Positions 40,877 to 56,088 of a stretch of DNA of 64,000 nucleotides are shown here, one piece after another. The DNA is from Modicisalibacter tunisiensis (GTDB lineage Bacteria; Pseudomonadota; Gammaproteobacteria; Pseudomonadales; Halomonadaceae). The notes under the pieces are model-generated. The model was not told where the DNA came from, ran no database searches, and saw nothing but the letters and a program-made list of their open reading frames with translations. The position numbers and the translations under genes were made by a program. Location: contig NZ_JAGXFD010000001.1 in NCBI RefSeq assembly GCF_020148005.1, forward strand, positions 2,011,739 to 2,075,738, given 5' to 3'. Every line of letters starts with the position of its first letter. Position 1 is the first letter of the stretch.

Positions 40877-41633
40877 GGGGATGGCCTCCGGGACGGGCCT
40901 TGAAGGCGATCATCGAGGCGAAGTTGAGATACTGGAACCAGGTGGTGACGCGCTCGAAGCCGAGCCCCGCCAGGCGCGCATGGTGGGTCGCCAGGCTGTC
41001 CGGACGCAGCACGTTCTCCAGTGCGGTGCGCTTCTGGCTGATCTCCAGGTCGCTGTAGCCGTTGGCGCGCTTGAAGTCGTGGTAGCGCTCCACCAGCCAG
41101 GCGTTCTCCGCCTCGTCCTCGGCGACGATCTTCTCCGAGAGGATCAGCACACCGCCCGGTTCCAGGACCGAGTACAGCCGGCCGAGCAGGGCATCGCGAT
41201 CGGCGGGATCGAGGAACTGCAGGGTGAAGTTGAGCACGATCAGGCTTGCGGGGCGATAGTCGATCGTGCGGATGTCGCCCTGCTCGATGATGATCCGGTG
41301 CTCGGGGCACTCGCTGGCCAGGGTCGCCCGGGCCCGCTCGACCATCGCCGGCGACAGGTCGATCCCGGTCAGGGTGAAGGCTTCCGGCGGCAGGCGAGCG
41401 GCCAGTGCCAGGCCCACCGCGCCCAGCGAACAGCCCAGGTCGTAGACATGGCCGCCGTGGCGCAGGTGGCGTTCGGCGAGCACGCCCAGCATGCCCAGGA
41501 TCTGCCCGTAGCCGGGGATCGAGCGACGGACCATGTCGGGAAAGCAGGCCACGACCTGCTCGTCGAAGGAGAAGGACGCGACCCGGTCGAGGGGTGTCGT
41601 GAAGATCGCGTCACGGTAAGATGCATCACTCAT
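40866..41633 (-). CDS. cmoA: Carboxy-SAM synthase
   Basis: Converts S-adenosylmethionine and prephenate to carboxy-S-adenosylmethionine, the donor for CmoB. 255 residues from ATG 41633 (another ATG 2 codons earlier at 41639). Conserved: FSFDEQVVACFPDMVRRSIPGY (split: FSFDEQV, FPDMVRRSIPGY), VYDLGCSLGAVGLAL, LNFTLQFLDPADRDAL, and HDFKRANGYSDLEISQKR. The last 11 bases overlap cmoB. Upstream lies a large palindromic repeat element that probably shapes the 5' region of this operon. Confidence 0.96.
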   Translation of the reverse strand: MSDASYRDAIFTTPLDRVASFSFDEQVVACFPDMVRRSIPGYGQILGMLGVLAERHLRHGGHVYDLGCSLGAVGLALAARLPPEAFTLTGIDLSPAMVERARATLASECPEHRIIIEQGDIRTIDYRPASLIVLNFTLQFLDPADRDALLGRLYSVLEPGGVLILSEKIVAEDEAENAWLVERYHDFKRANGYSDLEISQKRTALENVLRPDSLATHHARLAGLGFERVTTWFQYLNFASMIAFKARPGGHPHDA

Positions 41634-41657
41634 GGACATTCGCCGTGGGTACTAGGC

Positions 41658-41792
41658 TTTGTCTGAAAACTGGCTGCGCTCGATCGTGCGGTGTTCAAAA
41701 TCAGCTCAAAATGCTCGTTTACGTCTCGTAAACTCCGCTTTTTCGCTGATTTTTGCCTTGTCTGATCGTCGCTCGACGCCTTTTCGGACAAA
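41658..41792. repeat. Large palindromic multi-stem repeat element, copy 1
   Basis: Outer arms TTTGTCTGAAAA (41659-41669 region) and TTTTCGGACAAA (41781-41792) pair with one wobble. A middle stem AAAATCAGC (41697-41705) / GCTGATTTT (41745-41753) encloses an apical hairpin GTTTAC-GTCTC-GTAAAC (41717-41733). Conserved single-stranded blocks are TGCGCTCGAT (41675-41684), TGCTC just before and TCCGC just after the apical hairpin, and a 20-base block 41755-41774 beginning GCCTTGTCT. The same architecture recurs at 55956-56088. It lies between divergent cmoA and pgi. Bases 41793-41950 show only the pgi leader. Confidence 0.8.
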
Positions 41793-41950
41793 CCCGGGGT
41801 GGCATGACAGGGCGCGGCCGGGGCCGGGAAGGCGGTCGTCGCCCGGAACGGGGCACCAGTTTACGCATCGCCCCGGCGGCTTGCACCCGCCCGCGGTGGT
41901 CCAGGGCAAGGCAGCACGAGTGTGACTAAGGACGGTTAAAGGAGAGGCCG

Positions 41951-55386: not shown

Positions 55387-55953
55387 ATGGCGAGCTATTC
55401 TACCAACGAATTCAAGGGCGGTCTGAAGGTGATGCTGGACGGCGATCCCTGTGCCATCGTCGACAACGAATTCGTCAAGCCGGGCAAGGGCCAGGCCTTC
55501 AACCGTGTCAAGCTGCGCAACCTGATGACCGGTCGTGTCTGGGAGCGCACCTTCAAGTCCGGCGAATCGCTGGAAGCTGCCGACGTTCTCGAGCTGGACA
55601 TGGAGTACCTCTACAACGACGGCGAGATGTGGCACTTCATGAAGACCGACGGCTCCTTCGAGCAGTATGCGGTCGACAAGCGGGCGCTGGGCGACACCGA
55701 GAAGTGGCTCAAGGAGCAGGTGGCCTACACGGTGACGCTGTGGAACGACAACCCGATCAGCGTCTCGGCGCCGAACTTCATCGAGCTGGAAGTCACCGAG
55801 ACCGATCCCGGCCTGAAGGGCGATACCGCCCAGGGCGGCTCCAAGCCGGCGACGCTGTCCTCCGGCGCGGTGGTGCGGGTGCCGCTGTTCATCAACGAGG
55901 GCGAGGTGCTGAAGGTGGATACGCGCTCCGGCGAGTATGTCTCTAGAGCGTAA
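55387..55953 (+). CDS. efp: Translation elongation factor P
   Basis: EF-P relieves ribosome stalling at polyproline stretches. 188 residues. Lys34 in the loop VKPGKGQAF is the residue beta-lysylated by EpmA. The three beta-barrel domains end with [10 protein letters not shown]. Start ATG 55387 (AGGA 4 bases before) gives the usual family N-terminus. The adjacent epmB and epmA supply the modification. EpmC (hydroxylation) is not in the window. Confidence 0.97.
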
Positions 55954-55955
55954 TC

Positions 55956-56088
55956 GGCGCTATTGCGCTCGATGATACGGCGTTGAAGCCGGGCTCGGGC
56001 GCGAGTCCGATCGGCTTGCTCATTTACTGGAGTAAATTCCGCCGACTCGCCCGGCTTCGCCTTGTCTCATCGTCGCTCATGATGCGCC
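55956..56088. repeat. Large palindromic multi-stem repeat element, copy 2
   Basis: Starts 2 bases after the efp stop. Outer GGCGC/GCGCC and CGATGA/TCATCG pairs; middle stem GAAGCCGGGC (55985-55994) / GCCCGGCTTC (56049-56058); an extra CGAGT..CGGC / GCCG ACTCG stem; apical hairpin ATTTAC-TGGA-GTAAAT (56022-56037). The blocks TGCGCTCGAT (55964-55973), TGCTC and TCCGC around the apical hairpin, and GCCTTGTCT... (56059-56078) are shared with copy 1 at 41658-41792, while the stems differ in sequence but stay paired. Confidence 0.8.

Follow-up and report, generated by a model that had tools for sequence, protein, structure and literature searches.

Hairpins are frequent between genes. One repeat of this kind is ERIC, which was reportedly described by Hulton et al. 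in 1991. The available part of a 2024 review places ERIC in Enterobacteriaceae and Vibrionaceae (PMC10969869), and ERIC copies in Yersinia messengers are reported, in the accessible portions of two papers, to affect transcript levels (PMC10969869; PMC2267715). MITEPsy1 of Pseudomonas syringae, as far as the excerpt of its description goes, is 100 nt long, duplicates a 4-nt CTAG or YTAA target, carries the terminal repeat GGAAGGTCTGAAAAAGCC with TCTGAAAA within it, and was observed to move by its authors (PMC3189936). The available text of two further papers describes R178 of P. fluorescens (101 bp, with an internal 11-bp inverted repeat; PMC2718517) and Ppu-9 of P. putida (124 bp; PMC2267715), whose sizes and copy numbers are of an order comparable to those of the family reported here. 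The REP/REPIN system, associated with RAYT, consists of imperfect palindromes between genes with units of about 20 to 60 bp, according to the accessible part of its description (PMC3116915).

We analyzed a 64,000-nt stretch of the Modicisalibacter tunisiensis genome (the window), in which a first-pass annotation had noted two copies of a large palindromic element, W1 (41658-41792, + strand) and W2 (55956-56088, + strand). The shared body of these copies is about 110 nt long (110 positions of our covariance model) and thus exceeds the REP/REPIN unit. MITEPsy1 is similar to W1 in its target and in TCTGAAAA, within a terminal repeat that differs as a whole, and R178 and Ppu-9 were compared by description alone; all three may be members of the same family. 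Among the papers listed in searches of the open literature, we found no description of the hairpin family beyond ERIC; the letters GCTCATTTAC do occur in published papers, as a literature text search showed.

An element inserted between cmoA and pgi

W1 lies between the divergent genes cmoA and pgi, and W2 between efp and epmA (genX), with the efp stop codon TAA (55951-55953, + strand) 2 nt ahead of it. Both copies are present as annotated and fold far beyond shuffled DNA: W1 reached -48.5 kcal/mol (z -5.2) and W2 -65.9 kcal/mol (z -4.8), and in neither case did any of 200 dinucleotide shuffles equal the value. The middle stem, AAAATCAGC (41697-41705) with GCTGATTTT (41745-41753) in W1, is replaced in W2 by GAAGCCGGGC (55985-55994) with GCCCGGCTTC (56049-56058), a fully compensated swap, and the blocks TGCGCTCGAT, TGCTC, TCCGC and GCCTTGTCT are unchanged between the two, just as the first pass had stated. 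Two of its other claims held in part. The 12-bp outer stem exists in W1 only, where it is a terminal inverted repeat with one mismatch, and W2 has a short GGCGC/GCGCC stem in its place. The change of the apical closing pair from G-C to A-T is correct for these two copies, but the position is not a conserved pair, because A stands opposite C in most copies of our alignment A2.

On the + strand of W1, the shared body begins with the conserved block TGCGCTCG (41675-41682; alignments A1 and A2) and ends with TCGCTCG (41769-41775). Between them, the apical hairpin TTTAC-GTCTC-GTAAA (41718-41732) is flanked by the conserved and for the most part unpaired blocks TGCTC (41712-41716) and CTCCGC (41733-41738), and the conserved block GCCTTG (41755-41760) follows the middle stem. 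Outside the body lie the left and right terminal inverted repeats, GCTTTGTCTGAAAAC (41656-41670) and TTTTCGGACAAAC (41781-41793). W2 has the same body, a different outer stem and no terminal repeat of the W1 type (end match p 0.755).

W2 also carries an optional 16-nt insertion, TCGGGCGCGAGTCCGA (55995-56010), that is absent from W1. Insertions of this type, G.GCGCGAGYCCGRTC, follow CTC in the 5' or the 3' arm and were seen in L005, L012, L016, L020, L031, L032, L035, L071 and L433 of the same genome. At L071, L433 and L438 the insertion is present in this genome and missing from that of a sister species (G144), so it seems to have been independently gained and lost. Copies of different species (L020/L438, L115, L116) carry a further, secondary insert in the 3' arm behind GCCTTG. 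It is about 50-60 nt long (CCCACATGGATGTGGG ... GGCCCGTAGGGAAC...) and is missing at the L438 site of G144.

We then compared the cmoA-pgi region with that of G144. The region is empty there: parts 2-407 and 548-1001 of the query abut, and the W1 site is a single CTAG within GTGCTAGGGTGGC. The empty site sets the bounds of the element at 41656-41793, 138 bp. A CTAG lies to its left (41652-41655) and a CCGG to its right (41794-41797), which we take for the right-hand target copy in changed form, and the target duplication is therefore imperfect. The first-pass annotation had set a MITE with terminal repeats and target duplications against its own reading of selection for a fold, and W1 turned out to have both features, allowing for the altered right copy. 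W1 is 138 bp long, ends in GCTTTGTC...GACAAAC and belongs to a family of 39 copies in its genome, not all of them so ended. In Marinospirillum, five of the eight copies read have identical CTAG, CTAA or TTAG on both sides and another terminal repeat. The terminal inverted repeats, the CTAG target and the empty site in G144 together identify W1 as a mobile copy of the MITE type. Simple duplication is at odds with the empty site and with the wide covariation reported below.

We favor, with a probability of about 0.6, the explanation that W1 is a small non-coding mobile element of the MITE type, whose body spreads as a DNA hairpin and which is moved in trans. Transposases of resident insertion sequences would recognize the terminal repeats in trans, and the enzyme for W1 may be of the IS5 type, if MITEPsy1, with its CTAG target, is taken as the model. 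We searched for insertion sequences with W1 ends in the W1 genome, so that a partner in other genomes is possible; the 23 pattern matches (at most 3 mismatches) included no inverted pair at the spacing of an insertion sequence. When 13 end types were sought in the collected loci, five inverted pairs appeared in L256, L306 and L209, and no transposase was recognized between them. The pair in L306 encloses an ORF with an Lcl_C domain, the ORFs inside the L256 pair presumably resemble sugar-phosphate deaminases, and the L209 pair consists of two copies of the hairpin element. Spread by phage was also considered and set aside: W1 matched none of 50,697 phage records, and six stretches among viral contigs matched.

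Some copies are themselves rearranged. L022 (at about 1011779 of contig C1 in the W1 genome) is broken by an apparent insertion sequence whose protein begins MAKKIVSDELWSIVEPLLPPPQ; we read it as an insertion into the copy because the insertion sequence starts inside the repeat. L021 and L023 in the same genome and L389 in G144 have lost the core and kept the ends alone. L021 and L023 share an identical junction and may represent a mobile mini-derivative, and since they retain only the ends, the ends by themselves may suffice to move.

A hairpin family in more than one phylum

BLAST with W1 gave 33 places in its own genome at E ≤ 10, and W2 gave 13 at E ≤ 0.1. A covariance model (R1) built from 24 copies of that genome found 44 matches there at E ≤ 1. 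Of these, 39 had E ≤ 3.6e-9, among them the 24 copies that went into the model and match by construction. The first pass had proposed a search of gammaproteobacterial genomes with such a model, and the family was found widely: R1 matched 63 of 143 sampled genomes at E ≤ 0.01, the W1 genome included, and among the matches listed each positive genome came from another family. An exact scan with TGCTCATTTACN{3,5}GTAAACTCCGC returned at least 119 stretches in named genomes. Among the matches listed, the carriers included Pseudomonas, Halomonadaceae, Marinospirillum, Methylophaga, a Vibrio, Nitrosomonas, Nitrosomonadales and Mariprofundales, and, within Bacteroidota, for example Alistipes, Rikenellaceae, Tannerellaceae and Prevotellaceae; many Bacteroidota records are metagenome bins that could include foreign contigs, and the one from Pedobacter looks foreign. 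When 36 of these pattern loci were scored, R1 produced 44 matches at E ≤ 0.01. Some of these were partial, and those of full length included one from Alistipes (55 bits) and two from Rikenellaceae (50 and 47 bits).

A second model, R2, was made from 55 matches with ERIC excluded. Copy numbers in these groups were high despite the possible foreign contigs: at E ≤ 0.001 R2 counted 66 copies in the Alistipes genome (G180), 52 in Rikenellaceae, 67 in Prevotellaceae, and at least 150 each in Nitrosomonadales and Mariprofundales. In the phylum of G180, 22 of 148 genomes were matched at E ≤ 1e-5, G180 included, with model matches down to E 4.5e-30. These data show that W1 belongs to a multi-copy family that occurs in more than one phylum and has a conserved, strand-asymmetric long hairpin body. 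Since hairpins between genes are common, one could suppose that the palindromes arose by chance, or that hairpins of separate origin converged. We give this explanation practically no credence, as 22 fixed apex letters recur, among named genomes, in two phyla or more and the matches in the G180 phylum reach the E-value given above.

We also asked how ERIC relates to this family. R2 matched all eight ERIC loci at the correct place and strand (E 1.8e-10 to 1e-3, the E-values of both models being rough owing to short calibrations), and the sole other match at E ≤ 1 on these loci had E 0.64. With R1, ERIC was the best match in all seven plasmid loci (E 2e-5 to 0.07) and in three E. coli loci that represent one orthologous place (E 0.003-0.009). 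Because R2 was trained without ERIC, its eight matches place ERIC in the same superfamily. The ERIC sequence itself matched nothing in the 143 gammaproteobacterial genomes, W1's included, a sample without a positive control, so the link rests on the models. By profile, ERIC (RU-1, 127 bp) shares with W1 the GCGTT, apical TTAC-n-GTAA and GCCTT blocks and is likewise a long imperfect hairpin, and a stop codon lies nearby (at most 25 nt from the BLAST match) in seven of the eight loci; in five of these seven, ERIC is antisense to the gene concerned. The stems and hosts of ERIC differ from those of W1, and W1 has neither the full ERIC sequence nor its ends, which in S. enterica are given as TACTC...GAGTATA in the available part of the source (PMC2759123), in contrast to GCTTTGTC at CTAG in W1.

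Covariation, wobble pairs and the fate of settled copies

We next examined the stems. In the W1 genome, 25 of 36 predicted pairs were doubly changed with compensation among 26 aligned copies. Across families, 32 matches (31 distinct) aligned to R1 had 93.2% of their cells paired, compared with 68.2% for shuffled and 34-51% for slid partners, and double changes were seen at 33 of 36 pairs; for 28 further matches from the G180 phylum, the best-scoring ones with some sharing a genome, the values were 88.7%, 80.1% and 31-53%, with 26 of 36 pairs doubly changed. Both alignments are model-fitted and lean towards the model; the slid controls give the effect size. The covariation across families and phyla shows constraint on a fold.

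The first-pass annotation had taken covariation to mean selection for a fold, either as RNA structure or as a hairpin recognized by a protein. To weigh these, we counted mismatches in the stems. The element stems contained 38 G-T/T-G and 57 A-C/C-A combinations in 1875 cells, along with 98 other mismatches; a pair that reads T-G in almost all copies was excluded from the wobble count. As a control, 30 tRNAs from the loci and the window contained 52 G-U and 5 A-C in 683 cells (Fisher p 9e-11), and the 27 tRNAs with at most 2 mismatches contained 40 and 2 in 606. A structured RNA tolerates G-U above A-C, and the element stems do not. Neither strand, then, looks like an RNA helix under selection, and pairing without a tRNA-like excess of G-U favors a DNA hairpin, with the RNA reading kept as a rival. 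A known RNA family for W1 was sought in Rfam, which gave no match above the gathering cut-off: a tRNA was the only match in the window, and there was no match up to E 10 at 41600-41850.

Under the favored explanation, the body would fold in the single strand at the replication fork or as a cruciform, presumably with its mismatched blocks invariant, and would require this fold for spread, so that compensated changes would accumulate in spreading lineages and settled copies would decay one-sidedly. We looked at copies shared with G144. Among 41 G144 loci, flanks matched for 24 of the 39 copies in the W1 genome, on both sides for 19. At 14 of these 19 sites, with changes scored on the fold predicted from the W1-genome copy, 11 pair changes were breaking, 16 were between Watson-Crick and G-T, one was restoring, none was compensated and one was another double change. 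The reading of covariation as selection for a fold thus holds across families and phyla and finds no support at settled copies, where none of the 14 inherited sites shows a compensated change, five shared sites being omitted. At the 14 sites, changes affected 31 of 1363 stem positions, compared with 27 of 720 for unpaired bases and 256 of 5584 for the flanks, and this lower stem rate is compatible with some constraint on settled copies.

The omitted sites are L060, L061, L065 (W2), L067 and L070, whose elements are entirely different or inverted between the two genomes. We take them, provisionally, for sites where the element was replaced or inserted anew. If they were inherited copies, they would represent fast compensated change. 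The W2 site has flanks 96% and 91% identical in G144, and if W2 and its counterpart were one inherited copy, its compensated stem change would speak against decay at settled sites. L061 and its G144 counterpart L392 occupy one CTAG site in opposite orientations, and L070 in G144 resembles a hairpin that has collapsed, next to a new copy of the CTAG type.

These sites bear on a different explanation of the covariation, in which, during replication, the hairpin would fold back on itself and use one arm as the template for the other, so that stems match without any selection for the fold. Such copying could account for the strictly Watson-Crick pairing, for the many terminal repeats on one body, for copy-specific outer stems that extend to the stop codon (L064, L069 and L056, for example), and for the W2 and L067 sites, where every stem differs in the sister species. 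A possible intermediate is L112, at efp-epmA in genome G143, which looks chimeric: its 5' arm is of another subtype than its 3' arm, and the stems are unmatched. The 14 inherited sites, with 28 one-sided changes against none compensated and one other double, are evidence against fast copying of this kind, and arm-to-arm copying should erase the conserved mismatched blocks, yet these persist. We consider it improbable as the source of the matched stems.

Stop codons and different ends on one body

We also determined where the copies lie relative to genes. In the W1 genome, the start of the copy, taken as model position 1, is no more than 30 nt from a sense stop codon in 30 of 39 cases, and four copies end within 30 nt of an antisense stop (six at 40 nt). 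The corresponding sense and antisense counts were 14 and 1 of 28 in G144 (12 in-ORF copies set aside), many of these sites being common to the W1 genome so that the sets overlap, 16 and 5 of 46 in Pseudomonas and relatives (8 set aside), and 15 and 1 of 25 in the Bacteroidota loci (1 set aside), which come mostly from the exact pattern and several of which share a genome. Three sets gave no significant bias: 12 and 6 of 26 in the class-wide set (2 in-ORF copies set aside), 2 and 1 of 13 in the Beta/Zeta set (3 set aside), and 8 and 5 of 28 in the G180-phylum sample. Genes were called by codon score in the W1 genome and by ORF length only in the others, which causes errors in GC-rich genomes. 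Taken together, the bias towards the sense orientation after stops is clear in the W1 genome and is not universal. The target of the CTAG-type copies contains the stop codon TAG, which accounts for their closeness to stops; CTAG being palindromic, it leaves the orientation unexplained.

A rival explanation is that the element acts as a structured RNA within 3' untranslated regions: read in sense directly after the stop codon, its fold would protect or cut the messenger or load a protein, and selection on this function would drive the covariation. The 30 sense copies against four antisense in the W1 genome, the 15 against one in the mostly pattern-found Bacteroidota loci, the strand asymmetry of the unpaired blocks and the ERIC effect on Yersinia transcripts, taken from partial sources (PMC10969869; PMC2267715), are all consistent with it. 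Against it stand the missing G-U excess (38 against 57 A-C, where tRNAs have 52 against 5), the lack of compensated changes at the 14 inherited sites, the position of W1 between two divergent genes and the weak stop-codon bias in other sets. We doubt this explanation about as much as that of arm-to-arm copying. Under the preferred reading of a mobile DNA hairpin, copies behind stop codons would be retained because they are least harmful there, and they might also act on the 3' end of the messenger.

Finally, we compared the ends of the copies. In the W1 genome the ends matched as inverted repeats (p < 0.05) in 30 of 39 copies, in a test with 200 letter shuffles, where 4 and 6 letters of the body fall within the stretches compared; W2 is among the nine copies without a significant match. 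The end types in this genome include GCTTTGTCTGAAAAC, AGAGGGTG.TT.CAAA (L430 and L433, with L071 near it), GGGA.CC.TTG.AAAAC (L435) and GGAA.C.CTGA.TAAAT (L073), and L064 and L069 have copy-specific outer stems. About three of ten high-scoring copies read in P. alcaliphila had AGAACCTGTTCACGATCT-like ends and about three had CAGACTGTGTGAAAAC-like ends. Different ends on the same body were also found in Pseudomonas, Marinospirillum, Nitrosomonas, Nitrosomonadales, Mariprofundales and Bacteroidota. The results show that one body carries different terminal repeats, even inside one genome, and we infer that these are the ends of insertion sequences. Arm-to-arm copying could also transfer a newly gained end to the other side and so make new terminal repeats.

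A broader proposal, which we put forward tentatively and hold to be possible rather than probable, is that one hairpin module, either ancient or phylum-crossing, forms the core of ERIC and of many MITE families. It would adopt the terminal repeats of its hosts' transposases, possibly by fold-back copying, and thereby escape dependence on a single transposase, and in many hosts it would lie mainly behind stop codons. With ERIC inside a phylum-spanning family, a large comparative set becomes available for asking how it is mobilized and what role its hairpin plays, and covariance models would let annotators label many intergenic hairpins that are now unmarked. Swapping of ends while the body stays constant, if it occurs, would be an unusual route of survival for a non-autonomous element.
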